A stretch of DNA of 40,733 nucleotides from a virus: the IMG/VR virus record IMGVR_UViG_3300032322_002259, positions 1 to 40,733 of that record, one strand, 5' to 3'. Position 1 is the stretch's first letter. Each line of letters starts with the position of its first letter. The notes beneath the pieces were generated by a model. The model ran no database searches and was not told the origin of the DNA. It saw only the letters and a program-made list of their open reading frames with translations. This document shows positions 4,751-24,751 of the stretch, piece by piece. Both the position numbers and the translations under genes were made by a program.

Positions 4751-4755
4751 TCATC

Positions 4756-5130: not shown

Positions 5131-5145
5131 GTCATACTCTCCCGC

Positions 5146-7744: not shown

Positions 7745-8297
7745 TTATAAATGGCGCAGTGAAGAATATCTAAACAGCAGACGAGACTGCTATGAATTGG
7801 CTGCGAACTATCTAGGAAGATCCCCTCGGCGTATACTAGACATAGGTGCTGGCTACGCCAGGGTCAGCGAACTGTTCCAACAGAATCACGGCAGTGAACT
7901 TTGGCTGTTAGACGGTGATTTTGCCAGCACAGAAGATAGGTCTCGAAAGGCCAAATACGGCAGCGTAGATGATTTTAAGTTTTATCGTACCAGAGAAGAT
8001 CTAGAACAGCACTATCAAAAACAAGGAATGTCCTATACCTTTGTAGATGCTAACAATCCTCAGATACCCGCGGATGTTAAATTTGATTTGGTATGCAGTT
8101 GGCTCAGCTGCGGATATCATTATCCTGTGAGCACTTACACAGATCTTATACGTAGGCACACAGACGATGATTCAGTGATTATAATGGATTTTAGAAGAAA
8201 GACGCTGAGTCAACAGATGGATCAATTTGAGATCGTTGATTATCTAAATGGTGATCACGTGCAGAAACGCTATACTCTGCACATCAAACTTCGTTAA
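7737..8297 (+). CDS. Class I SAM-dependent methyltransferase
   Basis: The start is ATG 7737, overlapping the end of the TMBIM gene by eight bases; an upstream in-frame TTG is less likely. 186 aa. Motif I is 'RILDIGAGYARVSELF' (about 32-47), the acidic residue after strand 2 is in 'LWLLDGDF', and 'FDLVCSWLSCGYHYP' (motif IV region) follows. Methyl acceptor unknown; small-molecule or sugar substrates are typical for such short Rossmann enzymes. Co-transcribed with TMBIM. It converges on the nucleotidyltransferase-fold gene with a 4-base overlap. Confidence 0.8.
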   Translation: MIDYKWRSEEYLNSRRDCYELAANYLGRSPRRILDIGAGYARVSELFQQNHGSELWLLDGDFASTEDRSRKAKYGSVDDFKFYRTREDLEQHYQKQGMSYTFVDANNPQIPADVKFDLVCSWLSCGYHYPVSTYTDLIRRHTDDDSVIIMDFRRKTLSQQMDQFEIVDYLNGDHVQKRYTLHIKLR

Positions 8298-9007
8298 TCT
8301 AAGAGATTGTTCTGCTGTTCTAGGCTCAGCTGTTGATCTTCTAGTTCGCGGATCTTTTCTGAAATCTGATCGATCAGTCCTAGATTACGCAAGATCTTAA
8401 ACACTAGATTTTCCACAGACCATTCCCCAGCACGAGTTAATCCTGCTTTGCGCATCTGGGTGATTTTGTCTTTGACAGTGCGGAGACGATCTAGGTCTTT
8501 GCTGAGCAGAGCCTGTTGTATCTGTGCCAGTATAGCATCTTTTTTGGCTTCTATAGCTGCATCATCTAGTTTAGGTTTAATTTTTTTAGGTTCTACTAAC
8601 CATTTTTGATCAGTCAGGCTATATACGCCTGTGCTGTGATGTGGTTCGTCTTGTCCTTGAACATAACATTCTACAGGAAGTCCTCGTATGCTGATATCGT
8701 GTTGTTCGCTCCATAGACTTTTTTTAGCGTTGAACAATTCTCTCTGTTCGTCTGTAGGAGTGCCGGGAATGATGAGATGTAGATCCAGATCTGAGTATGC
8801 TGTCCAGGTGTAATTGGCATTAGATCCTGTGATGGTATAATCAGTAATATCAAGATCTACTCCTATGAATTCTTCAAATGCTGAAGCGATTTCGATCAGT
8901 TTATCTCTAACCTCGGGTCTAAGATCATCTCTGTCCCATATCTTAGGATTAAGACGTCGATTTACTGTTACAATGTCTAATTGCTCGTCAAGCTGCCTTA
9001 GTCTCAT
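8294..9007 (-). CDS. Nucleotidyltransferase-fold protein
   Basis: A 237-aa protein with 'GSNANYTW ... SDLDLHLI' (G61-S62 and D73-x-D75), the polymerase-beta-type nucleotidyltransferase signature GS-x(n)-D-x-D. A second acidic residue may come from 'HDISIRGLPVECYVQ'. A helical C-terminal region (about 140-237, Lys/Glu/Leu-rich) follows. Similar proteins recur in T4-like cyanophages; the nucleotide acceptor is not known. GGAG ribosome site six bases before the ATG. Lies after the helicase-83-aa gene unit. Confidence 0.75.
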   Translation of the reverse strand: MRLRQLDEQLDIVTVNRRLNPKIWDRDDLRPEVRDKLIEIASAFEEFIGVDLDITDYTITGSNANYTWTAYSDLDLHLIIPGTPTDEQRELFNAKKSLWSEQHDISIRGLPVECYVQGQDEPHHSTGVYSLTDQKWLVEPKKIKPKLDDAAIEAKKDAILAQIQQALLSKDLDRLRTVKDKITQMRKAGLTRAGEWSVENLVFKILRNLGLIDQISEKIRELEDQQLSLEQQNNLLD

Positions 9008-9034: not shown

Positions 9035-9286
9035 TTATTTAGCCCACATTAGGCTATAAACAGTGGCTAATTTATCTGAGTAGATTTCAGCAACAACATA
9101 GTTATAAGAATCGCCGGGACGTCTCTCGATCAGAAGTTGACATTCTGAGCGATGTTGAGATCTCAACCATTGTATATGGTCCAACCCTGCTTGTCGATGT
9201 ATCCTAGGCCAGTCGATAAAGATATCGCCAGTATTGTCTGCTTCGGTAGGCAGGAATCTAGCTATTTCAAAACGGTGAGTCTTCAT
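9035..9286 (-). CDS. Unknown 83-aa protein
   Basis: Starts inside the last codons of the helicase gene (20-base overlap) after a GGCGGGG stretch. Sequence MKTHRFEIARFLPTEADN ... ending 'VAEIYSDKLATVYSLMWAK'; alternating strand and helix, no membrane segment. No family recognised. Translational coupling to the helicase suggests it belongs to the replication operon. Confidence 0.65.
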   Translation of the reverse strand: MKTHRFEIARFLPTEADNTGDIFIDWPRIHRQAGLDHIQWLRSQHRSECQLLIERRPGDSYNYVVAEIYSDKLATVYSLMWAK

Positions 9287-10712
9287 CGTCCCCGCCCATA
9301 CTGTTCAATATCTCTCGTAGTTTTGTTGATTCTACATTAGCTCGAACTTTGCCTATGCTAGCGCCTTGGGTAGGATTAATCTCACCAGTTTCTTGATCTA
9401 CTTTCTGCACTTCTGTTTTACGCTTTATTGAATCAATAATACTACTTGTGCCTCTGCTAGCGCCATTATGACTTTCTTGTTCTTCTTCGGGTAAGTCGCT
9501 GATCTTAAGTGTTTCTAGATTAAATTCTAGATCAACTTTTTGTCCTACGCCTGAGCTAGAACGAGTCTTCATCAATTGTATCTGATAGCGACCACGCTCA
9601 CGCATAGCACGACTAGTAAAGATACCAAACACATTATCTGCTGTTTGAATCTTACTAAGTCCGCCTGAAATATGACTGTGATCAAATTCGACTTCTTCAA
9701 CTGCACCGCGATTTAACTGTGCCGCTGTAACAAAGATACATTGTTTTTCCATCGCTAGATTACGAAGTTCTTCTGATACATATTTGTCTTTGATAAACAG
9801 ATTTTCTGCACTGATCTTACGACTAGCAGGCATCAACAAATCTAAATAATCTACTAACAGAACATCAATTTTAGATCCTGTTTTGATTTCAAACTCTTTC
9901 ATATACGCTCTGAGATCGTTGGCAGTCTTGCCCGATGGCATATATTTGATCTGTAGTTTTCCTGATTTCTTTCCGATGACTCTAACTTTCATTTCAACGT
10001 TTTCGAGATCTTTAAAAATCTCCTTAGTTGAAACGCCAGTGGTCATTGCATCGATACGCATAGCAACTAGATCTTCTGAAAGCTCTAATGTTAGATACAA
10101 CACATTTAATCCTTGCAAACACCAATTTACACCCAAGTTTGCTAAGAACAAAGATTTACCTGCGCCTGATCCGCCAGCAAAGATATTCAATTCGCCTCTG
10201 TTCATACCACCGAACAGTCTGCGATCAAGACTTGGCCATCCTGTGGATATTTGTCCGTTCTTATCTTTAATTCGCATTAGTCGTGCTCGGGGATCTTCAA
10301 AGTAGTCAGTACCAAGATCTTTAGTTAATGAAATCTGTACAGCTTCTTTGATTTTAGATTCAACTTGACCGTAGTCTTTCTTTTCCAAAAGATCTGCTGA
10401 TTCGATAATCGCACGTTCAAGGGCTTTATGTCGAGTAAAGTTTTCGAACTCATCCATAAGCCAGTCTTTGTGTCCTTCTTTAATGTCTTCAGGTTTTTTC
10501 AAGTCCGTTCTACAACTTGCATTGACCATATCAAAGTCTGGCATTACAGAATATTCTTTGGCATAGACATTGATGAATTCTGCGGCATCTTGCAATTTTC
10601 TTTCAAATAGTGTATGATCGAAAATGCCTTGACATCGAACAAATATTTCGGCGTCTGCCAGCATTAGTTCGAGATATAATTTTTGTACTTCGTATCCGTA
10701 ATCTTTAATCAT
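9267..10712 (-). CDS. gp41: Replicative DNA helicase, gp41/DnaB-type
   Basis: The 481-aa protein is the hexameric helicase that unwinds DNA at the fork and works with primase. The RecA-like core has Walker A GGSGAGKS (180-187), 'LYLTLELS' with the catalytic Glu (around 210), Walker B VLLVDYLD (284-291) and 'FVTAAQLNRGA' (motif H3-like). An N-terminal helical domain (1-130) binds primase in relatives. The C-terminus is acidic ('GGDDEDSPF'), as in T4 gp41. It lies downstream of primase and carbamoyltransferase on one strand. TATAAT seven bases before the ATG and no Shine-Dalgarno suggest an additional leaderless promoter. Confidence 0.97.
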   Translation of the reverse strand: MIKDYGYEVQKLYLELMLADAEIFVRCQGIFDHTLFERKLQDAAEFINVYAKEYSVMPDFDMVNASCRTDLKKPEDIKEGHKDWLMDEFENFTRHKALERAIIESADLLEKKDYGQVESKIKEAVQISLTKDLGTDYFEDPRARLMRIKDKNGQISTGWPSLDRRLFGGMNRGELNIFAGGSGAGKSLFLANLGVNWCLQGLNVLYLTLELSEDLVAMRIDAMTTGVSTKEIFKDLENVEMKVRVIGKKSGKLQIKYMPSGKTANDLRAYMKEFEIKTGSKIDVLLVDYLDLLMPASRKISAENLFIKDKYVSEELRNLAMEKQCIFVTAAQLNRGAVEEVEFDHSHISGGLSKIQTADNVFGIFTSRAMRERGRYQIQLMKTRSSSGVGQKVDLEFNLETLKISDLPEEEQESHNGASRGTSSIIDSIKRKTEVQKVDQETGEINPTQGASIGKVRANVESTKLREILNSMGGDDEDSPF

Positions 10713-10719: not shown

Positions 10720-10748
10720 ATTATACATTCTAATTAAACACAGGTAAA
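10720..10748 (-). promoter_or_regulatory. Possible helicase promoter, leaderless geometry
   Basis: Minus strand TTTACC (10748-10743), 17 bp, TATAAT (10725-10720), seven bases, then the helicase ATG. The -10 box is perfect and the -35 matches 4 of 6. No MotA-box is seen at -30. Confidence 0.5.
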
Positions 10749-12202
10749 CCATAAGTCTTAGACCACTCAAATGAATCAATGATATCATTTACCATGGGCT
10801 GTCCTTTGACATTAAGGCTAGTATTGAGTAACATCGGACATCCGGTCCGTGCATACCAAATTTCTAACAATTTTCTAAATTCTTTATTATCTTCTTTACC
10901 TACAGTCTGCACTCTGCTGGTATTGTCTTTATGAACGATTGCAGGAAATAAATCTGGTCTCCTACATTGAACCGTGAATTGCATAAAAGGCGTTTTTTCT
11001 GTAGGCATTACAAAATAATCATTGGCGTGTTCTTCTAGTATAGCAGGGGCAAATGGTCTAAACTGCTCTCTTTGTTTTATTTCGTTTACTCGTTCTTTAA
11101 TGCCAGGATCTCTAGGATCTGCTAACAAGCTTCGATTACCTAATGCCCTAGGTCCGACTTCTGCCCGACCTCTAGCAACTCCACATATTTTATTTTTCAT
11201 TAGGTAGTCTACAATCTGTTCGTTAGAAGACTTAACAGTTATGTTGGTTCCTAAATAAGGAGTAAAATTTTCGATATGACCTTTTTGATATGCTAGCACT
11301 GCACCGATACTACTGCCATTGTCTCCCGGTGCGGGCGGAATCCATACGTTATCAAAATAATCAAACGCAACGGAATTAGCTGAACAATTCAATGCACAAC
11401 CACCACCTAATACTAGATTATTGCTGTTAGTCAATTCTTTAGCCATCTGTAATATACGAATAAAAGATTGTTCGTAAAGATATTGAGTCGCAGCAGCTAT
11501 ATCAAATTTATCCTGTTCAGATTGAAGATCGGGTTTCCACCATTTACAACCTCTATGAAGATTTTGCTTAAACAGTATTGGATTATATATTTCGCGATGA
11601 GGAAATATTACGAAATTTTCTACCATCTGTTTGTACAATCTTTTTCGATCACCATACGCAGCCATACCCATTAGAATATATTCTTCTTCGTTGGGCTTTA
11701 AACCACACCGTTGTGTCATAGCAGAATAGAATAATCCAAGACTATCGGGATATAGACTGCTATGAATCTTTTTAAGTTTTTTACCTTCTGCCTGCCATAT
11801 AGTCAATGTTTCAAACTCGCCGATAGCATCGATAACAACAACACAGGCAGAATCATACGGGCTAGTATAATAAGCGGCAGCAGCGTGTGTATGATGATGT
11901 TTGAATGTTTTTATAGGAGCATCAATATCATAATTTGATAGATACTGTTTAATATTATTATCTTGCCAGCCCTGTCCTGCAAACAGTTGTCTTATAGTCT
12001 TTAGCCAAGGTTTTTCATACCAGCACACTAAATCTGGATAACCGCCAACCATTCTAGCATATTCTATTAGATCTTCGTTGAGATGAGGATCGTTTTTGAT
12101 TTTGCTAAATCGTTCGGAATCGCTAGCAAATAATAATTTACTATCTTCAAAAACAGCCAACGAAGCGTTGTGGCTGTTAGCTGATATCCCCCAAGTAATC
12201 AT
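10730..12202 (-). CDS. NodU/TobZ-type O-carbamoyltransferase
   Basis: A 490-aa enzyme expected to transfer a carbamoyl group from carbamoyl phosphate via carbamoyl-AMP. The N-terminal Kae1-like domain has 'GISANSHNASLAVF', metal-binding HHHTH (102-106), LGGGCALN (265-272) and PGDNGSSIGA (292-301). The C-terminal YrdC-like part has 'GRAEVGPRALGNRS' (345-358), 'REQFRPFAPA' and 'LNTSLNVKGQPMV'. It is shorter than NodU/TobZ (about 550-600 aa) because the last domain ends early. Substrates in the family are sugars and antibiotics; a phage member carbamoylating 5-hydroxymethylcytosine has been described, as I recall. The position between primase and helicase favours a DNA-linked role; the glycan island downstream favours sugar. 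Confidence 0.9.
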   Translation of the reverse strand: MITWGISANSHNASLAVFEDSKLLFASDSERFSKIKNDPHLNEDLIEYARMVGGYPDLVCWYEKPWLKTIRQLFAGQGWQDNNIKQYLSNYDIDAPIKTFKHHHTHAAAAYYTSPYDSACVVVIDAIGEFETLTIWQAEGKKLKKIHSSLYPDSLGLFYSAMTQRCGLKPNEEEYILMGMAAYGDRKRLYKQMVENFVIFPHREIYNPILFKQNLHRGCKWWKPDLQSEQDKFDIAAATQYLYEQSFIRILQMAKELTNSNNLVLGGGCALNCSANSVAFDYFDNVWIPPAPGDNGSSIGAVLAYQKGHIENFTPYLGTNITVKSSNEQIVDYLMKNKICGVARGRAEVGPRALGNRSLLADPRDPGIKERVNEIKQREQFRPFAPAILEEHANDYFVMPTEKTPFMQFTVQCRRPDLFPAIVHKDNTSRVQTVGKEDNKEFRKLLEIWYARTGCPMLLNTSLNVKGQPMVNDIIDSFEWSKTYGLPVFN

Positions 12203-12318
12203 TTATAAATGAACGGATCTCTCTCTTTTAATTCTTCTATCCGTTTTTTAAACTTTCTTCTTTCGATAAACCAAGTAATAGGCCATAATATTTTTTTTAA
12301 AATTATTTTGAATTTCAT
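12199..12318 (-). CDS. 39-aa basic amphipathic protein between primase and carbamoyltransferase
   Basis: The ATG (12316-12318) overlaps the primase stop as ATGA, and the TGA (12199-12201) overlaps the carbamoyltransferase ATG, again ATGA. Such a double overlap is very unlikely by chance. Sequence: MKFKIILKKILWPITWFIER then a Lys/Arg/Glu helix ending 'ERDPFIYK'. An N-terminal amphipathic or membrane-surface helix and a charged tail suggest a small adaptor or membrane tether. Tiny proteins with a DPFIY-type ending seem to recur in marine T4-like phages, from memory. Confidence 0.75.
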   Translation of the reverse strand: MKFKIILKKILWPITWFIERRKFKKRIEELKERDPFIYK

Positions 12319-13334
12319 CTTTCTATTCTTTGCTCCATCTGTTTTTTAAACATAGTCAACTTTATTTCTCCTTTTTGAGCTGTTTTTATGGCATCAACGA
12401 TAACAAACAGTTTTCCATATCGTTGTACAGCATCTGCACAGTCTTTAACATCATCGCCCCAATTAGGAAAAGCTACTGACCAGTTATAGTGTATCGCTTT
12501 GCTAATTAGTTGAAGACCGGCTTCGTCTTGATCCGGTATAACTATAACCTCTGCTCCGAGGCTGTTAATTATTCTTGCCTGTTGATCCGCTATGTCGTTA
12601 GTCAATAATGCAACACCGTTAATGCTCAGCGCATCAAAAGGACCTTCGCATACAAATATATACTTTTGATCTTCTTTTTGTTGATCAAAATTGAATACAA
12701 AATGCGGGTGTTGGTCTGACAGATATTTAGGTTTACCGTCAGAGATTTTTCTAGCAGTACTACCAACTATACGACCTTGCCAGCGAAATGGTACGATTAC
12801 TCGATCAATATATCCGGGTGTAGGTGACCAATAAAAATCATAATCAAAAGGATTATCGTAACCTCTAGACATAAGATATCTTACCACTTCTATAAACTCT
12901 GATCCGATTTTTTCTTGGATTTCGCCCTCGATAACGCTGCTCCATTCTAGTAAAGACATAGAGTGTTCTGGTAAGGGCTTGTCTTCAAATTCTATCTTAG
13001 GTTGATATTCGGGAGCTTCGTAATCTTCTGATTCGGTTTTTAGTGCTTCAAAGACCATAGTTTTAATATCGTCTTCCCCGGCACCTAACCATCGAGCAAA
13101 ACTTTTCATTTTTTCACCGAACGGTGATCCTGGTTGCCATCCAGTTGAAAACTTACAGTTAAAGCAATTATAGACTATACCGCTACCATCAAATCGAATA
13201 CCTCCCCGTTTACGGGTATCTGGACTATGCCCACGATGCTGGCAACAAGGTGCATTGAAACTAGTCCAACCACTAGGGCTTTGTTTAGCTCGTGGAGGGA
13301 GTAGTGTGCGGAATTTATCTACGACTAGAGTCAT
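12315..13334 (-). CDS. gp61: DNA primase, gp61-type
   Basis: A 339-aa primase that makes RNA primers for the lagging strand with the gp41 helicase. The N-terminal zinc-binding domain has C30, C31, H33, H36, C57 and C60; the catalytic TOPRIM has E230 in 'FVCEGPFDAL' and D268-x-D270 in 'VIPDQDEAG'. Length equals T4 gp61 (342 aa). It heads the operon primase/39-aa/carbamoyltransferase/helicase. Its ATG is exactly six bases after a perfect -10 box and there is no Shine-Dalgarno, so the mRNA is predicted to be leaderless. Confidence 0.95.
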   Translation of the reverse strand: MTLVVDKFRTLLPPRAKQSPSGWTSFNAPCCQHRGHSPDTRKRGGIRFDGSGIVYNCFNCKFSTGWQPGSPFGEKMKSFARWLGAGEDDIKTMVFEALKTESEDYEAPEYQPKIEFEDKPLPEHSMSLLEWSSVIEGEIQEKIGSEFIEVVRYLMSRGYDNPFDYDFYWSPTPGYIDRVIVPFRWQGRIVGSTARKISDGKPKYLSDQHPHFVFNFDQQKEDQKYIFVCEGPFDALSINGVALLTNDIADQQARIINSLGAEVIVIPDQDEAGLQLISKAIHYNWSVAFPNWGDDVKDCADAVQRYGKLFVIVDAIKTAQKGEIKLTMFKKQMEQRIER

Positions 13335-13369: not shown

Positions 13370-14423
13370 CAGTGCCGGAGTTAATATTTTGATTTGGAGA
13401 AAGCGTATAGGTCTTAACACCGTTATAGCTTACCCCAGAGTATGTGATTCCGGTTATCCCGCCTAACGAATCGGTAGCAGTGACGGTGATATTAAGATCG
13501 TTAGCTGGAGATTCACCTCCTAGATTTGATCCTAAAATAGTCAACACCTGTCCTATCGAATAAGATTTTCCTCTGTTACCAATGTTAACAATATAATTTC
13601 CCAGGATAGTTTGTTGTATAGTGAAACTAGCTATTGTGTTAGGAGTAGTGGGTTGATGTTTTATTCTTAGCCAGTTCCATTTTCCTGTTACGTTAATGTA
13701 TTCTAGATTAGATTCGTTGTAATTTTTTATAGATACATCTGACCAAACGTGAGGAACTCCGCCTTCACTTAAACTTCCCTGAACAGTCACAGTTCCGGTA
13801 TAATTTCTCATATATAATTGGAATGTATGTAATGAATTTCCTGTTGTTGTTTCAGGATTAGAATTTATGATGCTACTGATATAATATGCCGGATCTCCAT
13901 ATCCTGTAGTAGCGGGATTAATATAGTCAAACTTGTTAATAACAGTGCTAGACATTAAGTTTCCGTTAATGTCTCCATTTACCTCAATCAGTCCAGACAC
14001 TTCATATTGAGCATCAACATATAAAGGAGATTTTGAAGAAACTGTATAATTGTTATTGTCTATATAGGTTCTAGATTCTTGTGTTAATGAATAGTTATAA
14101 AATCCTAAATCTAGATCTCTAACTTGATTTTCTGTAAGGGTGACATAGACTTTACCCGTCGATGCGGACTGTAAAGTACAATCTTGTTCAATGATTAGTT
14201 CTTGTGTATCAACTGAAACTAGTTTAAAAACTATATAAGAGTTTTCTATACTAGTTGCTTTCTCGTCTGAATTTCTTACCTGGAAATCGATCCTATTATC
14301 TACACTTCTGTATATTTTTAAATTTCTGTTATACACTCTACGATACCTCTCTGTTTTCCAGGTGCCGAGATTTGTAAATACATCAACTTTGTTTGGATAT
14401 AAATAAACTGAGTTAAGTTGCAT
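13347..14423 (-). CDS. Virion structural protein, BppU-like N-terminal domain
   Basis: A 358-aa beta-rich, Asn/Thr/Ser/Tyr-rich protein. Residues 30-120 ('IDFQVRNSDEKA' to 'GFYNYSLTQES') have the length and spacing of the N-terminal domain of BppU-like baseplate proteins. The C-terminal 70 residues carry 'YSIGQVLTILGSNLGG', the 'GxGYxxGDxLxIxGxxLGG' element common in tail and fibre proteins of marine phages. So probably a baseplate or fibre-associated component; the exact site is unknown. It has a late promoter (GATAAATA, 14445-14452) and TAAGG ribosome site. Confidence 0.75.
   Translation of the reverse strand: MQLNSVYLYPNKVDVFTNLGTWKTERYRRVYNRNLKIYRSVDNRIDFQVRNSDEKATSIENSYIVFKLVSVDTQELIIEQDCTLQSASTGKVYVTLTENQVRDLDLGFYNYSLTQESRTYIDNNNYTVSSKSPLYVDAQYEVSGLIEVNGDINGNLMSSTVINKFDYINPATTGYGDPAYYISSIINSNPETTTGNSLHTFQLYMRNYTGTVTVQGSLSEGGVPHVWSDVSIKNYNESNLEYINVTGKWNWLRIKHQPTTPNTIASFTIQQTILGNYIVNIGNRGKSYSIGQVLTILGSNLGGESPANDLNITVTATDSLGGITGITYSGVSYNGVKTYTLSPNQNINSGTVDKILYR
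14398..14405 (+). promoter_or_regulatory. T4-type late promoter (+)
   Basis: Perfect TATAAATA inside the start of the opposite-strand structural gene, 48 bases before the + strand ATG at 14454. It forms an overlapping divergent pair with the minus-strand late element at 14445-14452. Confidence 0.75.
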
Positions 14424-14444
14424 ACCTTAGCGGACCTTTATGCA

Positions 14445-14452
14445 TATTTATC
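14445..14452 (-). promoter_or_regulatory. T4-type late promoter (-)
   Basis: GATAAATA on the minus strand, 21 bases before the structural protein's ATG (14423), the normal distance for late genes of this phage type. Confidence 0.75.
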
Positions 14453-14453
14453 T

Positions 14454-14825
14454 ATGAGAATAACAGAAAACCTACAAGAAAATTTTCCATTTATCAGCGT
14501 AATAACACACGTAAACCAAGAGTATGTGGGCGTTATTATAAATCAGGATCAGCAGATCACCAGTTTCTACGATTATACATCTATCAAGAGCGATTGGGAA
14601 AAATCTAAGTTTTTAGAACTTGGTGAAGCCTGGTGGTGGGAAAGTAATCGTCAAATCCCTATTAATATTTTCTTGCATCGAGAAATCGGGCCTTTTAAAT
14701 ATGCCATTAAAAACTTCAGCACAAAAGACGTTAAAATATTATTAGGACCGTGTACTAGCTTAAATGATATTATAGTTAAAAGAATTAAAAGAAAGTCTAT
14801 AACACTAATTAGAAAAGCAACTTAA
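14454..14825 (+). CDS. Unknown 123-aa protein
   Basis: I start it at ATG 14454 (MRITENLQENFPFISVITH) rather than 14418, because the earlier start lies within the divergent promoter region. Strand-rich N-terminus 'YVGVIINQDQQITSFYDY', a central Trp-rich helix 'GEAWWWESNRQIPINIFL', and 'ILLGPCTSLNDIIVKRIKRKS' at the end. No catalytic motif seen. Conserved-looking small proteins of this shape occur in marine T4-like phages without assigned function. Late-promoter driven; converges on the mini-DnaE gene with a 4-base overlap. Confidence 0.7.
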   Translation: MRITENLQENFPFISVITHVNQEYVGVIINQDQQITSFYDYTSIKSDWEKSKFLELGEAWWWESNRQIPINIFLHREIGPFKYAIKNFSTKDVKILLGPCTSLNDIIVKRIKRKSITLIRKAT

Positions 14826-15403
14826 CTATATCCGTAACTTATTTGTTCACAAATTAAATTCATCTGAACAACAACAGCCATAGCATATGCAGTAGCATGG
14901 CTTTTCTTGAAATAATATTCATCGTTGTTTGGTTTTTGCCAAACCTCGTTCAAGATCCTCGACCAGCTTTCTCCAACTAGATATCTCTTGGCAGGTCGAA
15001 TCATCGCTAGAATCGCTGCCAATTCCTCCACTGTCTTCGGTTTCATTTGTCGTAATATACCACCATGCCCGTTGACGTGAAAGAGCAAGTTGACGAAAGA
15101 GTCGTCTTCTAGAAGATCCCATAATGGCTCCTGATTCATTAGGTATTCTAAATGATTTTCATCTCGAACACCTTTGTATATTCCAACATTTAGAAAATCT
15201 ATTTTAAAAAAACCTTTGTCTTCTGCTTCGTTGTAAGGAACAGCACAGAGGTTTTCTTCTGCGTATACAGGTACCTGATGAAAATACACACCTGTGTTAT
15301 GTTTGATTAGTTTTTCATTTTCTAATCGACTAGCAGGTATTGTCTTAAAAAATTTAAGAGCTTGGTCTCTATCAATAAAATCTATATCAATGTCGGGCAT
15401 CAT
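14822..15403 (-). CDS. Miniature DnaE-like (Pol III alpha-like) protein
   Basis: A 193-aa protein carrying several DnaE landmarks in the right order: PDIDIDF (3-9, cf. PDFDVDF with the two catalytic Asp), TGVY (37-40), KIDFLN (67-72, cf. KFDFLGL with the third catalytic Asp), 'VEELAAILAMIRPAKR' (125-140, cf. the 'ALYRPG' segment) and 'FKKSHATAYA' (165-174, cf. 'F..SHAAAYA'). Cellular DnaE is over 1,000 aa; PHP, most of the fingers, HhH and OB parts are missing. Similar short proteins exist in T4-like cyanophages. Activity unknown; it may be a structural remnant, regulator or transferase. It overlaps the 74-aa gene by 4 bases. Confidence 0.75.
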   Translation of the reverse strand: MMPDIDIDFIDRDQALKFFKTIPASRLENEKLIKHNTGVYFHQVPVYAEENLCAVPYNEAEDKGFFKIDFLNVGIYKGVRDENHLEYLMNQEPLWDLLEDDSFVNLLFHVNGHGGILRQMKPKTVEELAAILAMIRPAKRYLVGESWSRILNEVWQKPNNDEYYFKKSHATAYAMAVVVQMNLICEQISYGYS

Positions 15404-15624
15404 TGTAATCTTGTCGTTTCAAAAAGTAGCAAAGGCAATGTATCTGCCAAAAATTGAGCGTATTCTTCGGCATCTTCGTGATCATCAAAACCGGAAAACT
15501 TCACATATACATCCGGAGCATCTTCTGCTACTACTACTTCTATATCGATATCATCTCTAGAAATAAATTCTTCATTTTCGGATAATTCTTCTACTACGAC
15601 TGGTTCTTGTTTTCGTTTAGGCAT
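15400..15624 (-). CDS. Acidic 74-aa protein
   Basis: MPKRKQEPVVVEELSENEEF then 'VYVKFSGFDDHEDAEEYAQFLADTLPLLL'. Strongly acidic with a basic N-terminus; 'KFSGFDDHEDAEEYAQFL' suggests a strand-helix unit. It starts with a TAATG overlap with the zinc-finger gene and ends over the mini-DnaE start codons, so the three are translationally coupled. Function unknown. Confidence 0.7.
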   Translation of the reverse strand: MPKRKQEPVVVEELSENEEFISRDDIDIEVVVAEDAPDVYVKFSGFDDHEDAEEYAQFLADTLPLLLFETTRLQ

Positions 15625-16307
15625 TATAAAATTTTCGCCTCCTTGACGATATCTCTTACTAACTCGATGTCTGCTGGCAAGGCCTTAAATTTTCTAACCC
15701 AGAACGTTGGATCTATTATTTGAGAAATAATTTCTAACTGTTCGTCGTTCATCTTTTTAAGCATATCTTTGCCAGACTTTGTATTTAACACCAGCCAAGG
15801 GCTCACTAAACCCTCTTTTATATCGTGTGTTGATCTGTTCAAATTTACATACTGAAAGTAGTGTTCCCATACAGAATTATTTTTGTCAGCCCAATCCATC
15901 ATCGTCTTTATTGACCGTTGTACTGCGCTTTCGGCAGGTTCTGTTTTGATGAGATCTGTGATATATGTTTCATACAGTTCGTCTCTACACCAGTGGTCTA
16001 ATTTAACCCCGCTTTTAATTACAAAGTCGATAAACCTTTCTGGATTTATAGGAGCAGTATTAACTAAAAAACTACCAAATTTTATAAATGCAGTGTAGTA
16101 TGGACTAGAGGCGAAATCATCAAACGTTTTTTGTGATTTGCCTTTCTGTGTAATATCATAAAATCGTTGATAGGTCAATAAACCTGCTTGAACGTGCTTT
16201 TCAGTTTTACTTAGATGTCTACGCTTTTGTTCGCAGATATGCACAGCCAAAGTTTTTTCCTTGGCAAAGAATTTCGAACAGTATTCACACTTATAACTTA
16301 ATTCCAT
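15624..16307 (-). CDS. Zinc-finger protein conserved in marine T4-like phages
   Basis: Start chosen at ATG 16307 (MELSYKCEYCSKFFAKEKTL) giving 227 aa; the longer frame overlaps the previous gene by about 100 bases. Residues C7-x2-C10-x12-H23 with C25 or H31 make a C2H2/C2HC finger. The remaining 200 residues are helical ('FDDFASSPYYTAFIKFGSF', 'LVSPWLVLNTKSGKDML', 'IIDPTFWVRKFKALPADIELV') and match no domain I can name. A nucleic-acid role is inferred from the finger and the proximity to replication genes. Confidence 0.7.
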   Translation of the reverse strand: MELSYKCEYCSKFFAKEKTLAVHICEQKRRHLSKTEKHVQAGLLTYQRFYDITQKGKSQKTFDDFASSPYYTAFIKFGSFLVNTAPINPERFIDFVIKSGVKLDHWCRDELYETYITDLIKTEPAESAVQRSIKTMMDWADKNNSVWEHYFQYVNLNRSTHDIKEGLVSPWLVLNTKSGKDMLKKMNDEQLEIISQIIDPTFWVRKFKALPADIELVRDIVKEAKIL

Positions 16308-16800
16308 TGATTGTTTTTTTATCCCAACCAAGGTCCTCGCAGTATTTTTTAATTTCTTTGTCGGTTGTTGTAATTGCAAGTGTTTCAATGTCTGACCTTT
16401 TCATATTAGGAAAAAGTTGAGATAAAAATTCCTCTTTTTTATTTTTTTCTTTCTTAAGAGGTAACCATTCGTGAAAGTATGTCTGCTTTTTTTCGTTACT
16501 GCATACACATAAGCTCACCCATTGTAACTTAGGATGTTTGGATATTTCGTTCCAATTTTTATTATAATATTCATTGACGGTTAAAAGAAAATGTTCTTTT
16601 TCTTCTCTAGAAGGTCGTTTGACTTGAACATAAGGATTTGCAGTCACTGAGACATTACTGATATACCTGTTAAGGTTCCACAGGTCTCCTTTAATCTCTT
16701 TACGCCCATCTTCAGTGGCTGCATCCCAAAGCTCTTTGACCCCCATATCTACAGCAGGGATCATGTCTTTGAATAGATCTACGTGTTTATTTTGTCCCAT
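16291..16800 (-). CDS. Conserved unknown phage protein, 169 aa
   Basis: Opening 'DLFKDMIPAVDMGVKELWDAATEDGRKEI' and 'LNRYISNV', then 'NEYYNKNWNEISKHPKLQWVSLCVCS' and a Lys-rich C-terminus. From memory this matches a conserved hypothetical of T4-like marine phages that neighbours the zinc-finger protein. I considered the clamp-loader small subunit gp62 but the recognisable gp62 motifs are absent. It overlaps both neighbours (14 and 17 bases). Confidence 0.7.
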   Translation of the reverse strand: MGQNKHVDLFKDMIPAVDMGVKELWDAATEDGRKEIKGDLWNLNRYISNVSVTANPYVQVKRPSREEKEHFLLTVNEYYNKNWNEISKHPKLQWVSLCVCSNEKKQTYFHEWLPLKKEKNKKEEFLSQLFPNMKRSDIETLAITTTDKEIKKYCEDLGWDKKTINGIKL

Positions 16801-17063: not shown

Positions 17064-17897
17064 TCATACCTTTAATAAATCATCCATTGTGTATAGTTTC
17101 TGCATAAAACTAGAAGGATTATCTAATACACTTCTTTCTAAATCTCCAGCCCTTCTTGGGCATATGTTTACTGCGAAGTCGCAGTTGTTAACACGTTTAT
17201 AAATTTCAACCATTTGCTTTACAGTTGTTCCTACACCGTGGCCGAGATTTTCTATTTGATTAGAAGAATGTTCTATACCTTTAATAACACTATAACATAT
17301 TTCATTGACATGTGTATAGTCTCTCACAGCCGAACCGTCTTCGGTATTATAATCATCCCCAAACAGGTTAAAAACTCCTGTTTTTTGAGCATTCATTAAA
17401 TTCCACATTAAGCCGTCAACATTAGTGGGATCTATGCCGTCGGTACCTGTTACATTATAGAACCTAAAAGTTGTATAGGGAATATTTTTTTCTGTACAAA
17501 ATTGTCTTACTACGTCTTCTGCACCTCGTTTACTAATACCGTAAGGATTATTCATCGGACCTGCTGATCCTGTACTAGCATGAACGAATCTTTTGAATTT
17601 TAAATTTTTTAATACATTTAAGGTTCCTAGAGTATTAGTCAAATAATATAGTGTAGGATTTAAAACACTTCTACCTACAGCAACTTCGGCTGCTAAATGA
17701 ATTACACAATCAAACTCAAGATCTGAGTATATCCATTCATTAGTATTTCTAATATCTTCTATTACAAAGTTTTCAATATCGATTTTTGGAATATCTTTAT
17801 CTAGCCCATATAATTCATAGGTATTTTGTTTTTGTAGGATTTTCGTGAGATGAGATCCTATATATCCGGAGTTTCCGGTGATTAAAATTTTCTTCAT
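17064..17897 (-). CDS. GalE-like NAD-dependent sugar epimerase
   Basis: Start at ATG 17897 (MKKILITGNS), one base after the previous stop; the upstream TTG is less likely. 277 aa extended SDR: GNSGYIGSHL (8-17) binds NAD, Y119-x3-K123 is the catalytic pair, 'EDGSAVRDYTHVNEI' corresponds to the GalE 'DGTxVRDYIHVxDL' substrate motif, and 'RRAGDLERS' the 'RxGDxxxx' end. GalE interconverts UDP-glucose and UDP-galactose (about 340 aa in bacteria), so this is a shortened version. The substrate is not certain. Last gene of the glycan island. Confidence 0.88.
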   Translation of the reverse strand: MKKILITGNSGYIGSHLTKILQKQNTYELYGLDKDIPKIDIENFVIEDIRNTNEWIYSDLEFDCVIHLAAEVAVGRSVLNPTLYYLTNTLGTLNVLKNLKFKRFVHASTGSAGPMNNPYGISKRGAEDVVRQFCTEKNIPYTTFRFYNVTGTDGIDPTNVDGLMWNLMNAQKTGVFNLFGDDYNTEDGSAVRDYTHVNEICYSVIKGIEHSSNQIENLGHGVGTTVKQMVEIYKRVNNCDFAVNICPRRAGDLERSVLDNPSSFMQKLYTMDDLLKV

Positions 17898-17898
17898 A

Positions 17899-18549
17899 TT
17901 ATTTTCCAAGAGGGTAAAGGTGTCTTAGTTTACTTTTATAATGAACAATTTTTACTCCTACCGGTCTAACTTTATCGGCATGTTTTCCTTGTTTATAAAA
18001 ATTGTTGTATATTTCACATTTAAAAACTTTTATTTTAACTCCGTCTCTTACTACTGTTTTATCTCTATCCTGAGTGTTTACCTTGCATAGTTCATTTAGG
18101 GGAGGTTGATCACTGACGCCTTTGTCAGATAATTTTTTCCATCTTTCTACAAAATCTTTTGCAGCCGGTGTTTTCCTAATAAAAACTATACCGGCATTAA
18201 TCGGTAATTGATGTTCGACGGCCTTGGGTGCTCTTACTGTAACACCTATGTCGTAGTCTTGAGCAATGTCATCTATGTTTTGATATATCAACGCATCGGC
18301 ATCTAACCATACAAGATATTCTCCATCTTTAATTGATTCGAGCGCATCTGCTATTATGTGAGGTTTGCAAGGAATCTTGGCATTAACTTCATCACTAACT
18401 CTGCCAGTAAACGGTTTGCCAAAACCTAAATTGCCTAGGTCGTAGGCTATTATAGGATAACCTAGTTTTTCAGTCCATCGTATGCCTTGTTCAACATACG
18501 GTTTAAAATTCGAATCTCCTGCAATCACAACTGTAATATCGTTTCTCAT
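17899..18549 (-). CDS. GT-A glycosyltransferase-like protein
   Basis: A 216-aa protein with strand 'TVVIAGDSNFKPYV' then 'YLVWLDADALIY' (D83-x-D85), the DxD metal/nucleotide-sugar site of GT-A enzymes. 'LPINAGIVFIRKTPAAKDFVERW' and 'SDQPPLNELC' resemble the acceptor-side features of the nucleotide-diphospho-sugar transferase/GT8-like group. Probably adds a sugar in the glycan made by this island. Starts over the stop of the amidotransferase gene. Confidence 0.75.
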   Translation of the reverse strand: MRNDITVVIAGDSNFKPYVEQGIRWTEKLGYPIIAYDLGNLGFGKPFTGRVSDEVNAKIPCKPHIIADALESIKDGEYLVWLDADALIYQNIDDIAQDYDIGVTVRAPKAVEHQLPINAGIVFIRKTPAAKDFVERWKKLSDKGVSDQPPLNELCKVNTQDRDKTVVRDGVKIKVFKCEIYNNFYKQGKHADKVRPVGVKIVHYKSKLRHLYPLGK

Positions 18550-19862
18550 ACTCTTTTACTTTTTCCGCCTTTTTCGGTTACGTGAAATCCTCTTTTTTCA
18601 CCACTTTCATAAGGAAATTGATTTATCCTAAGATATTCGTCTAAACAACTTTTATATTTGCTGTTTTTTAACTTAGGGGATAACCATAAAAATTCCTGGA
18701 CTAAATTATTATCTAAGAAAGGGTAACGAGTTTCTATACCAAAGTGACCAGCTACATATTCTTCTTTGTTGAGATATTGAACCTGGGTACCATCGTAAAA
18801 ACTATGCCACGGCCAAAATCCGTTTAAGTCTTCCGGAAACTGTCCGCCAAAACCACTGTGTTTATATATTTTTCTACCACCAAATCCGTAGTCGCTGATA
18901 ATTTCGTCAGCTCCCTGGCCAGAAAAATAAATTCGTCTATTATCTTGTCTAGCTCGATTACAGATAGCAGATAACCCCATCGAAGCTTGATCACCTTTTA
19001 TATCGTAACCATTATAATTAAAATTTTCGCAGTTAGAGTTTAACTCTTGTTTCCATTTCTGAAATTCTTCAGAGGACAAAGAAAATGCTTCAGTGGTATT
19101 AATTTTTTGTAATCTTGCACTTAATACTTCAGGATTTTCATTATTGATAATTGTGTATGCTTTGAAATTTGCATTTTGTTTTTGCAGTTCACAGGCTATG
19201 GCTCCGCTGTCATATCCTGAGCTCATTCCACAAAACATACGATGCGTAGTGTTAGCTGTTCTTTTCTTAATGCTAGCTGTAAAAGCTTCAATCCATCCGT
19301 CAAAAGATGTTTTAAATTGATTTAAATCGAATTGTCTATTTGTGTATTGATTGATCTTCTCACCAGTGCGAAGATTATAGATCTCCGTGGTATTGCCTTT
19401 TAATTTTTTTCCGTTAGTGAACCCTAAGCCCTGAAGCTGACTATTATAAGAAGCAGCACAAAACTCTGAACGATTAAATTCATACCATAGAGGTTTACAA
19501 GCAAACGTATCTGTGGCAATGATAACTTTATTATTTTTAAAATCAACAAGACAAATAGCAAACTCTCCGTCTAGAGATTTAACAAATTCGTCTCCTTGAT
19601 TTAGATACAGATCAATTAGGCATTCACCGTCACTACGATAAGATCCAAAAGCACTATAGTTATAGATTTCGCCATTAAAAGTACAAACAACATCGCCCTT
19701 AATAAAGGGCTGAGGAGTTACTTCACCGGTAATGTGTAAAAGGTTGTGTAAAAATTCTACACCGTTTACAGTTTTCGAATTAGTTAAATCAGGACCACGT
19801 CTTTGGCAAAATTTGTTTACCTTCGATAACCCCAATCTCGATGTTACACCAAATCCACACAT
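18546..19862 (-). CDS. Asparagine-synthetase-type glutamine amidotransferase
   Basis: A 438-aa AsnB-family protein. Glutaminase domain: Cys2 nucleophile (MCGFG), RRGPD (21-25), NGEIYN (63-68). ATP-pyrophosphatase domain: MSSGYDSG (213-220) equals the 'SGGxDS' loop, later 'FSGQGADEI' and 'ETRYPFLDNNLVQEFLW'. E. coli AsnB is 554 aa, so the C-terminal helices are short. The family makes Asn or amidates other acids such as sugar uronates and peptidoglycan acids. Next to a nucleotide-sugar dehydrogenase, amidation of a uronic acid is the attractive inference. Confidence 0.88.
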   Translation of the reverse strand: MCGFGVTSRLGLSKVNKFCQRRGPDLTNSKTVNGVEFLHNLLHITGEVTPQPFIKGDVVCTFNGEIYNYSAFGSYRSDGECLIDLYLNQGDEFVKSLDGEFAICLVDFKNNKVIIATDTFACKPLWYEFNRSEFCAASYNSQLQGLGFTNGKKLKGNTTEIYNLRTGEKINQYTNRQFDLNQFKTSFDGWIEAFTASIKKRTANTTHRMFCGMSSGYDSGAIACELQKQNANFKAYTIINNENPEVLSARLQKINTTEAFSLSSEEFQKWKQELNSNCENFNYNGYDIKGDQASMGLSAICNRARQDNRRIYFSGQGADEIISDYGFGGRKIYKHSGFGGQFPEDLNGFWPWHSFYDGTQVQYLNKEEYVAGHFGIETRYPFLDNNLVQEFLWLSPKLKNSKYKSCLDEYLRINQFPYESGEKRGFHVTEKGGKSKRV

Positions 19863-19863
19863 A

Positions 19864-20445
19864 TTATACCTTTACAAAAAGCATCCCTGTATCTTTGATA
19901 TGGTGTGCTTTGGTAGATGAAGCAATTCTTTGTAACTCTCGAGAATCCGGTGTCAGTTCTTTGTATCCTCTATCGGCTAATTGATTTAACCAATATTCTG
20001 TAGGTTGACAATTTACGTGGTGATGACCTTCTTGACCCGGAAGTCCGTGAGTCATAAACAGATATTTGCCAGAACAGATAGTATCTAATAAATTATTGAT
20101 ATATTTTTCTTCGATATGTTCGACTACTTCTATGCAATTTACTAAATCTACATCTTTACTATACGAACCTTCAGTTAAATCACACAACACGGTAGGATAA
20201 ACAGAGTTTTTAATGTTATCTTCTAATCCGTCAACCGCTGTTGTTTGCAGACCTTGACTAGCAAACCATTTAGCCGCGTGTCCTCGCCCAGATCCAACAT
20301 CCATTACTGATTTTATATTATATTTTTTAATTATATAAGTCCACACTGCCGGACAGTATGTGCTGGGATTTACTTCGATAAAGTTTCCGCCTAAATGAGG
20401 TTTATTCGGATCTAACGCTTCTGTGTATTTTTTCTTCTTAGCCAT
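19864..20445 (-). CDS. SAM-dependent methyltransferase
   Basis: Start at ATG 20445 (MAKKKKYTEALDPNKPH) after GGATAAAA; the longer frame runs into the upstream gene. 193 aa: motif I 'SVMDVGSGRGHAAKWFAS', 'TTAVDGLED' (post-I), 'DLVNCIEVVEHIEEK' with the HxE-type motif, 'KYLFMTHGLPGQEGHHHVN' at the end of strand 5. This matches methyltransferase domain family 11/23-like enzymes in sugar and lipid modification clusters. Substrate probably a sugar, inferred from context. Confidence 0.8.
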   Translation of the reverse strand: MAKKKKYTEALDPNKPHLGGNFIEVNPSTYCPAVWTYIIKKYNIKSVMDVGSGRGHAAKWFASQGLQTTAVDGLEDNIKNSVYPTVLCDLTEGSYSKDVDLVNCIEVVEHIEEKYINNLLDTICSGKYLFMTHGLPGQEGHHHVNCQPTEYWLNQLADRGYKELTPDSRELQRIASSTKAHHIKDTGMLFVKV

Positions 20446-20447
20446 TT

Positions 20448-21701
20448 TTATCCTAGTTTCGTAATTATGAGAGATCCATCGTCTCCGTCGATACATTTAT
20501 ATGAATCTTTATCTAATTTATCAAAAAAATCATCCACTGCTAATTTTTGTCCTTGCCACAATCTGTAATCATCGATGATTACAATTCCATTAACCGATAG
20601 ACGATCATAAAATTTTTCTAGTTCTATTTTTGTAGATTCATACCAATCGGTATCTAACCTCATGAGTGCAATACTTTTAGGAATATTATTTTCAAACTGC
20701 AATGTGTCTTCTACTTTTCCTATGATTAAATTTGTAAATTTTTCATATTCATTTGACACAAGACTAAGAGTAGACTGTACTATATCAATGGTTGCTTTGC
20801 ACCAATCTGCATAACCAGTCGATTCGTTTTTTGATGCTTGAAAAGTTTGCGAAGCCTTTTCATTTTTAGTACTAATGTCGAGATCGCTAGGTTCTGACAT
20901 ACCTTGAAATGTGTCGTAAACCCATAATTTTTTTTCTAAGTTATTATAAAGGATATTATCTAACATTAATGCAGCTAGTCCTCCTCTATACGTACCGCAT
21001 TCTACATAATCTCCCGGGACATTTTTATCTATGATGTTTTTGAGACTTAGAGATAATTCACTAATCTTTCCTCTGGTAACCATAGTGTTAGGTTTAATTA
21101 TTTCATCGAGCAACGGTTTGTCGTAGTTGATTATACATAAATCTTGTCGGAATATTTCAAGATTGTCTGTGAACTTAACAGGTGATTTTTTTCTGTACGC
21201 TACAGCAATTAAACTATCAATTTTATCTATTGCCAATATCTCATAATGATTTAATTCTGCTAATTTTTTAAAAAAATTTTCATTGTACCAAATTCTACAA
21301 TGTTGTCCCCAACGATTAGTATGCATATTATCAGAATCTGGCAATATATGAAAGGCGATGCCTCCTACTTTAAGACTATCATGAATTATTCTAAAAATAG
21401 TATGTTGATTGTGAATCGGTTCAATATGTTCAGTGACTCCGCAATTCGTAACAATATTAAAATAATCAACATATTCTCGAAATTCGTTGAGATTTCGTAA
21501 ATCTTTTTTGATAGAACCATCTAACCCGTTTCTATCAACAGATGTATGGTCGTACCCATTATTAGTAAAATATTCTTTTCCTGTTTTCTCGGACCTTTTA
21601 ACATGATTCAATGATTGATTGCCTAACTCCAACATTTTTTTACCGTTAGCTTGATCAATAATACTGTTAATAAATTTTAAATAATTTGTTTCTAATCCCA
21701 T
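20448..21701 (-). CDS. Two-domain methyltransferase fusion, C-terminal TylF-type
   Basis: A 417-aa fusion. Residues 15-170 are one methyltransferase-like domain ('KKMLELGNQS', 'DLRNLNEF', 'FNIVTNCGVTEHIE', 'GGIAFHILPDSDN'). Residues 175-417 are a TylF/MycF-like metal-dependent O-methyltransferase: 'DYVECGTYRGGLAALML' (231-247), 'LWVYDTFQGMSEP', 'ALMRLDTDWYEST' with D350 and D352, and 'GIVIIDDYRLWQGQ' with D377/D378. TylF-type enzymes methylate deoxysugar hydroxyls. Two methyl transfers on one sugar chain are implied; the first domain's motif I is weak and could be inactive. Ribosome site GGAGATGAG. Confidence 0.82.
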   Translation of the reverse strand: MGLETNYLKFINSIIDQANGKKMLELGNQSLNHVKRSEKTGKEYFTNNGYDHTSVDRNGLDGSIKKDLRNLNEFREYVDYFNIVTNCGVTEHIEPIHNQHTIFRIIHDSLKVGGIAFHILPDSDNMHTNRWGQHCRIWYNENFFKKLAELNHYEILAIDKIDSLIAVAYRKKSPVKFTDNLEIFRQDLCIINYDKPLLDEIIKPNTMVTRGKISELSLSLKNIIDKNVPGDYVECGTYRGGLAALMLDNILYNNLEKKLWVYDTFQGMSEPSDLDISTKNEKASQTFQASKNESTGYADWCKATIDIVQSTLSLVSNEYEKFTNLIIGKVEDTLQFENNIPKSIALMRLDTDWYESTKIELEKFYDRLSVNGIVIIDDYRLWQGQKLAVDDFFDKLDKDSYKCIDGDDGSLIITKLG

Positions 21702-21702
21702 C

Positions 21703-22416
21703 TCATCTCCAATGTTCTACGATCCACTCTATTTTATTTTTTTCCTGAGAAGGATCGACCTTTCCGGGAAAGAAAATCATTTTTGCGTTATCGGGTAATT
21801 TTCTGTCTGGCATAAAACTGTAATCATAAACACCGTCACTTTCGGTGAACATACATTCTTTTTCGCCAAGGACGATTTGTATCCAAGCTTGGTCCGAACC
21901 TACCAAATTTTTTTCATTTCTTAGTTTATCTAATAAAATTAAAGATTTAACAGGATCGAAATCTTCCCAAACCTGTTGTCTAGAACCTGCATTCATCATA
22001 ATCAAACCGCCGTTATAAATTTGATTATGGCCGCTCTTGCTGATAAACTTGTTTATGATAAAATCTTCTTTTCGTGTTAGAATAGAATCTATATTAGAAA
22101 CGATGACACAATCTAAATCGATGCAGATAAATCTTTCTCCTAATATATCTTTTATTTCTTTACTAAAGATATAGAGTCTATTGTAGCATCCTCCAAGACT
22201 TTTATATTTGTCCCAGAGTTCAATAACCTGTATTTCTTGATTCAATCCTCTTGCATCGTCGGTGACACAGATAAAATTGAAAGGTACTGTAGAATTTCTT
22301 TTGACAGAATTATACAAGGTGTTTACGTGTTCGGCAGAATATTCTACAGGAGATTTAAGTTTATATCCTGAATTAGGTTTTCGCCATTTGAAAGTTACAA
22401 TAGAAATTTCATTCAT
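21703..22416 (-). CDS. GT-A glycosyltransferase-like protein
   Basis: A 237-aa protein: 'SIVTFKWRKP' strand, 'FNFICVTDDARGL', 'RFICIDLDCVIV' (D100-x-D102) giving the DxD site, 'NGGLIMMNAGSRQQVWEDF', 'GSDQAWIQIVLG' and 'MIFFPGKVDPSQ' near the end. This resembles the GT8-like/capsular glycosyltransferases of aquatic bacteria and viruses. Ends one base before the fusion methyltransferase gene starts. Sugar donor unknown. Confidence 0.75.
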   Translation of the reverse strand: MNEISIVTFKWRKPNSGYKLKSPVEYSAEHVNTLYNSVKRNSTVPFNFICVTDDARGLNQEIQVIELWDKYKSLGGCYNRLYIFSKEIKDILGERFICIDLDCVIVSNIDSILTRKEDFIINKFISKSGHNQIYNGGLIMMNAGSRQQVWEDFDPVKSLILLDKLRNEKNLVGSDQAWIQIVLGEKECMFTESDGVYDYSFMPDRKLPDNAKMIFFPGKVDPSQEKNKIEWIVEHWR

Positions 22417-22991
22417 ACATACGCCGCTAAAATATTCTGTGGGCGAGCAGCATCCAAAAGTTCAAATTTGTAATTTGGATTTATTTCTAAGATTTTATTC
22501 TTTACCTGATCTAATGTAATTCTGTCGTGGGCCGGCCTGCCAAAGCAATTTAAATCGTCAATCAACAACGTATGTGTATTAATAAAATGCGATCTTATTG
22601 TTTCCAACTCTTCCATTATCGGGCAATTCTTCGCTAATTTTTTCCCATACTGAGAACTAATATGTGCATCTAGCCAAAATGTAGCAGGATCTGTTAAATC
22701 TCTAACCACTGCTGGTAACAATTTTTCAGAATCTCCTAAATAGGAAATAACACGACCTTCTTTAATTTCTTTTTTAAATCTTTCTTGTGCTTTTTCATAT
22801 AGATGCGGATGTATTTCTATAGTAAGACATTTTTCAAACCCAGCGTCTAGTGCGCATTGTAGTCCGTTACCTAAAAAGGTTCCAGATTCTACGAATAATT
22901 TATTTTTAAATTTTTTAAAATGGTTCAATAAATTGACATAATAGACTTTCACATCACCTTCGAAATTTTCAGTTTTTTCCCAGGGGTTCAT
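22413..22991 (-). CDS. Methyltransferase-like protein
   Basis: A 192-aa Rossmann protein: 'KLFVESGTFLGNGLQCALDAG' (motif I region), 'CLTIEIHPHLYEKAQERF' (acidic post-I residue), 'ATFWLDAHISSQY', 'TLLIDDLNCFG' (acidic loop as in metal-dependent O-methyltransferases), 'YKFELLDAARPQNILAAYV'. Likely an O-methyltransferase of the FkbM/TylF-like superfamily, but no single diagnostic motif is present. Overlaps the next gene in the ATGA manner. Confidence 0.65.
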   Translation of the reverse strand: MNPWEKTENFEGDVKVYYVNLLNHFKKFKNKLFVESGTFLGNGLQCALDAGFEKCLTIEIHPHLYEKAQERFKKEIKEGRVISYLGDSEKLLPAVVRDLTDPATFWLDAHISSQYGKKLAKNCPIMEELETIRSHFINTHTLLIDDLNCFGRPAHDRITLDQVKNKILEINPNYKFELLDAARPQNILAAYV

Positions 22992-23755
22992 AAAGAATTC
23001 TTTTTAATTAAACCTTCGTTGTATTCGAGTAATGATTTAGTAGCTTTTGGATCTAATCCTAAACTCTCTACCCAAGCACACCAAGCATAAACATCTTTAG
23101 GGATACATTTGCTGTTGGCTCCTCTGTTGTCAGGAAATACAAATGTCCACCACAAATTCATTCTAGGATCGTCTCCGTAGACAGCTTCACGAATTGTGTA
23201 ATAATCAACACCAGCAGCTTCACAAGCATCATACAATTCTTGACATTGCATTACTTTATAAAAGATTGCTCGATTTTCACTGAACTTGATAATTTCAGCT
23301 TCGTATCTTGTAACTTGTCTTATTCTGACATTAGCATTGTAGGCTTTTTGATAACATTCTATAACTGTTCTTCGATCTGCAGGTGCTCCACCTAATACCA
23401 TAAACTGTCTAGAGTCCATCTGTAAAAATGGATGATTTGGGGTTTCTCCTAGATATTCTGGTTGGACGACAATTCTTTTATTATATTTTGCCACCATCCT
23501 ATCTGCGAAACCAGGTTGTGTAGCTGAACGTATAACTATAAAATCACAACCACAGTTGGCGATAGCATCTTCAACTGCATCACAATTTAATTCTTTTCCG
23601 CCTTCCCAAGGAGTTGGTACAGCTAAAAATGCAATATCACAATTTTCTAAAGGCTTGCTGTATTCGGGGATAAATTTGTCATAAATTTGTGCATCGGGAA
23701 ATAATTTTTTTGTAGCCTTACCGATCCATCCGTATCCTATAATTCCTACTTTCAT
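22988..23755 (-). CDS. Minimal nucleotide-sugar 6-dehydrogenase
   Basis: A 255-aa protein with N-terminal NAD motif GIIGYGWIG (4-12), 'IAFLAVPTPW' (41-50), 'VVQPEYLGE' (97-105), 'EAEIIKFSENRAIFYK' (152-167) with the conserved Lys and Asn, and 'SKCIPKDVYAW' (215-225) with the catalytic Cys217. These define UDP-glucose/GDP-mannose dehydrogenases that turn a sugar nucleotide into its uronate. The C-terminal nucleotide-binding domain of the usual 400-450 aa enzyme is missing, so activity on a free sugar nucleotide is uncertain. Coupled to the epimerase gene by a 4-base overlap. Confidence 0.85.
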   Translation of the reverse strand: MKVGIIGYGWIGKATKKLFPDAQIYDKFIPEYSKPLENCDIAFLAVPTPWEGGKELNCDAVEDAIANCGCDFIVIRSATQPGFADRMVAKYNKRIVVQPEYLGETPNHPFLQMDSRQFMVLGGAPADRRTVIECYQKAYNANVRIRQVTRYEAEIIKFSENRAIFYKVMQCQELYDACEAAGVDYYTIREAVYGDDPRMNLWWTFVFPDNRGANSKCIPKDVYAWCAWVESLGLDPKATKSLLEYNEGLIKKNSL

Positions 23756-24720: not shown

Positions 24721-24740
24721 AACTTTCCCTATTAACTGGG

Positions 24741-24748: not shown

Positions 24749-24751
24749 CCT

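Follow-up and report, generated by a model that had tools for sequence, protein, structure and literature searches.

The product of a minus-strand gene in a genome fragment of an uncultivated phage (IMG/VR record IMGVR_UViG_3300032322_002259; "the window" hereafter denotes the whole 40.7-kb stretch analysed) probably makes up the second half of a minimal polymerase core of the C family (Pol III alpha) that is split between two genes; it would join a separately encoded first half non-covalently, and the pair would serve as a second polymerase beside a family-B enzyme. We refer to this half as B and to its partner as A. The reading draws on sequences and predicted models, which show homology, complementary halves, co-occurrence, invariant catalytic residues, purifying selection, and linkage to replication genes. 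The split arrangement itself was already published in 2021, and the window gene is an additional member: the available parts of Iyer et al. 2021 (Viruses 13:63, PMC7824862) describe a split minimal DNA polymerase III alpha in group 2.2 jumbo phages, propose that the halves reconstitute one enzyme for strand synthesis or repair, and view the split as ancient, with ancestral separate subunits. We reached the split independently, and our results agree with that account: genomes of relatives show the same two-gene split (PHROG 11778 for B, 11127 for A), the family-B companion, and the lack of PHP. Relative to those parts of the paper, the window adds a gene from an uncultivated phage, and two 141-kb Alishewanella phages and a metagenomic gene cluster (contig L268) widen the range. 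No experimental test of a split Pol III alpha was found in the papers searched, and papers on Atu_ph07, AP-J-162, and marine jumbo phages mention Pol III genes or domains as annotation only.

Gene B is a reduced relative of C-family polymerases, not a standard DnaE. A preliminary description of the sequence had reported a reduced DnaE-like protein with PDIDIDF, TGVY, KIDFLN, AILAMIRPAKR, and FKKSHATAYA, and every motif is indeed there, in the order stated (PDIDIDF at residues 3-9, HNTGVY at 35-40, FKIDFLN at 66-72, AILAMIRPAKR at 130-140, and FKKSHATAYA at 165-174). The gene and its key residues are located as follows:

14822-15403, minus strand: gene B, probable C-terminal half of a split minimal Pol III alpha (palm part 2 and reduced fingers), 193 aa plus stop.
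15380-15394, minus strand: codons of D4-x-D6-x-D8, invariant in 41 proteins.
15197-15205, minus strand: K67-I-D69, with K67 and D69 invariant.
14987-15001, minus strand: IRPAK, residues 135-139, counterpart of FRPGP in the DnaE fingers, with R136, P137, and K139 invariant.
14894-14911, minus strand: FKKSHA, residues 165-170, counterpart of FNKSHS in DnaE, with H169 invariant.

D4 and D6 align with D401 and D403 of E. coli DnaE, a numbering based on the PDB alignment ending at L392 and on the E. coli sequence NPERVSMPDFDVDF, and D69 aligns with D555 (KFDFLG), where the E. coli number follows the literature. Gene B matched PHROG 11778 'DNA polymerase' (E=1e-67) and phrog_405, a phage DNA polymerase family of 1190 positions (2.5e-8), while the Pfam domain DNA_pol3_finger was barely detected (E=0.007, under the cut-off) and a weak PF07733 match in the window proved to be gene B itself. 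Relatives were found by tblastn in 63 phage records, with at least 80% coverage in all and 34-54% identity among the matches listed, the nearest cultured relatives among these being 52-54% identical. Carriers are mostly jumbo phages of the RaK2/121Q/PA5oct/Atu_ph07/SCTP-2 type, plus the two Alishewanella phages, and IMG/VR yielded 289 further candidate relatives.

Gene B opens with the catalytic Asp-x-Asp motif, at residue 400 of E. coli DnaE. Its alignment with full-length DnaE skips the thumb region, and the PHP, thumb, (HhH)2, and clamp-binding motif that standard DnaE and PolC carry in one chain are absent. The preliminary description had correctly listed PHP, thumb, and OB parts as missing, but had not mentioned that the palm, too, lacks its first half and with it the GS motif. 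Large internal deletions relative to full-length DnaE are what a degenerate remnant of a host-acquired dnaE heading for loss might display, yet the ORF is intact in the 63 phage records and at the 289 IMG/VR loci and dN/dS is low, so that this explanation is largely refuted and barely credible. Across 41 diverse B proteins, down to 30% identity with the window protein, D4, D6, D8, H35, G38, K67, and D69 were invariant, as were R136, P137, K139, H169, and Y173. The proposal of a C-family palm keeping all three candidate aspartates, for which their conservation in homologues had been set as a test, is thus supported: D4, D6, and D69 are fixed in all 41 proteins, with no free variation, and the predicted structure could be aligned to the corresponding region of E. 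coli DnaE. The median dN/dS of B was 0.086 across 154 close pairs with dS between 0.1 and 1, and this low ratio, together with the invariant catalytic residues, indicates that B is not decaying.

The other half of the palm was recovered as a separate gene. A search of 17 relatives with PF07733 (DnaE palm) revealed a second small gene in 15 of them, matching positions 13-98 except in Munch, where the match was longer (21-125); two further weak matches fell in a deaminase-like gene and were dismissed as chance. This gene A (~155-215 aa) lies elsewhere in the genome and holds the first half of the palm, with a helix pair and the GxGRGSS loop, in which GxGRGS is invariant, and its product ends at EFLK or EFFK, the counterpart of E. 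coli RFLN. In the PDB alignment, this end corresponds to E. coli DnaE residue 392, and B starts with (M)PDIDIDF; its start in remoter relatives precedes the equivalent motif by a few residues. This leaves at the A/B joint a gap of about seven residues (E. coli DnaE 393-399). A split intein at this joint was considered and rejected, since B carries no intein C-part at its start and A no intein N-part after EFLK/EFFK. The active site of the nucleotidyltransferase fold is formed by the GS loop and the aspartates together, and neither A nor B should therefore be complete alone; the GS motif, DxD, and third Asp of the pol-beta-like palm are found complete only when A and B are taken together. A sensitive profile search of the 40.7-kb window did not detect A, and because the window is a genome fragment, we infer the presence of A in this phage from its relatives.

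These results bear on the earlier suggestion that B by itself is a small enzyme, i.e., a nucleotidyl transferase or translesion helper, or else a decoy. All three aspartates do lie in B, but the fold also requires the GS half, which is coded by a separate gene in the same genomes and co-occurs with B, and a decoy would be at odds with the invariant catalytic residues and with the strong purifying selection (dN/dS ~0.09). We consider activity of B alone very improbable, a minimal nucleotidyl transferase made of B only being disfavored by the separate GS half and a decoy role unlikely. Translesion or accessory synthesis is possible.

Predicted structures place the two proteins on complementary parts of the same fold. 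AlphaFold2 models were obtained with pLDDT 90.0 for B and 88.7 for the A protein of a close relative (G001), and the top Foldseek matches of both were C-family polymerases, with E-values against the PDB of 0.0025 at best, as expected for a reduced domain. By VIA-align, A was superimposed on residues 279-395 of E. coli DnaE (2HNH) with a Z-score of 9.9 (95 residues, 2.3 A), its first ~53-57 residues falling outside these structural matches. The overlay of B on the same structure, called for in the preliminary description, aligned it to residues 400-781 (Z 8.8, 184 residues, 4.8 A), so that the two ranges have zero overlap, and the same complementary ranges were obtained on the Pol III of T. aquaticus and M. 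tuberculosis. In the B model, strands 5-8 and 67-71 carry D6/D8 and K67/D69, respectively, and D4 sits just ahead of the first strand.

A and B also occur together. A was detected by tblastn in 60 of the 63 B-bearing phage records, the misses being one 109-kb partial record and the two Alishewanella phages; the latter reflect a sensitivity artefact, as a profile run on one of them, Slicko01, detected A there, bringing the count to 61/63. A was likewise present in four relatives (G001, G002, G004, and G007) and in 13 of 13 phage records examined, and was not found by profile in three contigs of 188-280 kb, which are possibly fragments and were left out of the count. Where the pair was checked, both genes share a strand, at distances of 4 to >200 kb. 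B is usually followed by a small convergent gene (phrog_11637), a structural gene, a primase, and a DnaB-type helicase, an order that differs downstream of B in XacN1 and RAS14. The corresponding neighbors in the window are:

15400-15624, minus strand: 74-aa ORF overlapping the start of gene B, with no family matches above cut-off.
15624-16388, minus strand: 254-aa upstream neighbor (phrog_11058) with a weak match to C2H2 zinc fingers; RaK2 and L268 have homologous genes upstream of B.
16291-16800, minus strand: phrog_11758-like upstream neighbor, homologous to the gene between the clamp loader and the zinc-finger gene in L268.
14418-14825, plus strand: convergent 135-aa gene (phrog_11637) that overlaps the 3' end of B and is conserved in synteny among relatives.
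12315-13334, minus strand: DNA primase (T4 gp61-like), by family match.
9267-10712, minus strand: DnaB-like replicative helicase (T4 gp41-like), by family match.

The phrog_11637 gene, which sits beside B in most of the group, is possibly a partner or regulator of B. As for A, its neighbors in RaK2 are a GroES-like gene and the gp44 clamp loader; in Phosso, they are GroES and an AAA-ATPase. In contig L268 (3537-8573), A, a small gene, a GroES-like gene, a 354-aa ORF, a clamp loader, a phrog_11758-like gene, a zinc-finger gene, and B are all encoded within 5 kb, and the two genes directly upstream of B are homologous to the neighbors of B in the window. Taken with RaK2, Phosso, and the contexts of B, this cluster indicates that A and B both belong to a replication neighborhood.

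Other features of the window were noted in passing. A carbamoyltransferase-like gene (NodU-type, by eye; 10730-12202, minus strand) lies between the primase and the replicative helicase, a position from which it is absent in RaK2, 121Q, and Phosso. The replication genes are interspersed, at 17064-25929 and 29313-36423, with large blocks of genes judged by eye to be nucleotide-sugar, glycosyltransferase, methyltransferase, and asparagine-synthase-like, and a 237-aa protein with GSNANYTWTAYSDLDLHL (8294-9007, minus strand) had a weak nucleotidyltransferase match under the cut-off (NTP_transf_2, E=0.007).

The preliminary description had placed B in a phage group that replicates with a B-family polymerase. 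For the relatives this holds: of 17 related genomes or contigs, all but one, a 199-kb contig, encode such an enzyme (16 of 17), and Slicko01 does too. No family-B polymerase was found within the window fragment itself. The SLYP and YGDTDS-type motifs of this polymerase are intact in most relatives inspected. PHP and HHH_6 were detected in none of 15 related genomes tested, and the only finger-domain matches above cut-off in these 15 were in gene B.

We infer that A and B form a heterodimer and that it is catalytic. Protein A would provide the GxGRGSS loop, which binds the nucleotide, within the first half of a pol-beta-like palm; the strands bearing the catalytic aspartates D4, D6, and D69 would come from protein B, as would shortened fingers (IRPAK, KKSHA), and the two proteins would meet non-covalently at the joint. 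The resulting core of ~350-400 aa would be devoid of PHP, HhH, clamp-binding, and OB domains and of most of the thumb. Gene context suggests a role in replication or repair, in which this core may work together with the clamp loader and primase-helicase of the phage, next to the family-B enzyme, and it could fill gaps, extend primers, or take part in repair. Its grip on DNA would be weak, as would its processivity, because it lacks the thumb and, in the fingers, the YQEQ/RRAMGKK part, and the need for a second polymerase is questionable, since relatives have an intact family-B enzyme. Both the loss of thumb, HhH, and clamp-binding parts and the presence of that polymerase, along with the location among replisome genes, would also suit a non-catalytic replisome subunit, in which the palm serves as a scaffold for binding of DNA, nucleotide, or clamp loader and does not polymerise. 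Such a scaffold is unlikely in our judgment, as neither the three aspartates nor the GxGRGS loop varies among proteins with 30-40% overall identity, in contrast to typical dead polymerase homologues.

Compared with bacterial DnaE and PolC (E. coli DnaE 2HNH, T. aquaticus 3E0D, and G. kaustophilus PolC 3F2B), the phage proteins share the GS loop, DxD, third Asp, and RP and KSH fingers motifs, and in the fold alignment almost the whole of B is covered, as are the C-terminal two thirds of A. However, the bacterial enzymes exceed 900 aa in a single chain that includes PHP, thumb, HhH, clamp-binding, and OB domains, whereas the phage version comprises two short proteins without these. In DnaE3 and PolC of Thermotogae, the thumb is naturally reduced, as in A and B, and PHP is reduced as well, yet each is still a single large chain, a far smaller reduction than that of the phage proteins (Timinskas et al. 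2013, PMC3919608).

Broken-up dnaE genes of other phages bear on the origin of the split. Contig L275 (3200-6326) encodes a full-length phage dnaE, with 93-96% DNA identity to L276 (4255-6096), that is interrupted by a ~1.3 kb insert with a LAGLIDADG endonuclease ORF (4514-5503). An Rfam search of the insert returned no intron family. It lies between SRF and SLPDIDVDF, the same linker that parts A and B in jumbo phages. In contigs L270-L274 and L276, dnaE is divided into two ORFs after KFDILG or its equivalent, which is a different joint, and the fingers ORF of L276 is interrupted at IIRPG|C by an intein-like insert; between the dnaE ORF pairs inspected in L270-L276, a DnaQ-like exonuclease gene was seen by eye. 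The DnaE of contigs L270-L276 is C-family and broken up too, but retains PHP and full fingers, unlike A and B. Together, the L275 insert at the A/B joint and the other broken dnaE genes make fracture of a single ancestral gene by a mobile element a concrete alternative to the ancestral-subunit view. The rooted tree of A and B decides neither between these two origins nor whether A near B is ancestral, because its deep order is unsettled (support 22-76). The fuller scenario, in which the A and B mini-core cooperates with the clamp loader and primase-helicase beside the family-B polymerase and the split derives from a homing-endonuclease break of dnaE, not from ancestral subunits, is offered as a tentative and rather doubtful one.

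What is new here is the exact A/B joint, the co-occurrence count, the 141-kb carriers, a contig that groups A, B, and the clamp loader within 5 kb, and a full-length phage dnaE with a homing-endonuclease insert at the same joint, which bears on whether the split is ancient or derived. If active, A and B would count as one of the smallest known cores among C-family polymerases, formed by two proteins that meet mid-palm, and bacterial-type and family-B replicases would be at work in one phage. The pair would also offer a compact, genetically separable system for the minimal needs of the Pol III active site.
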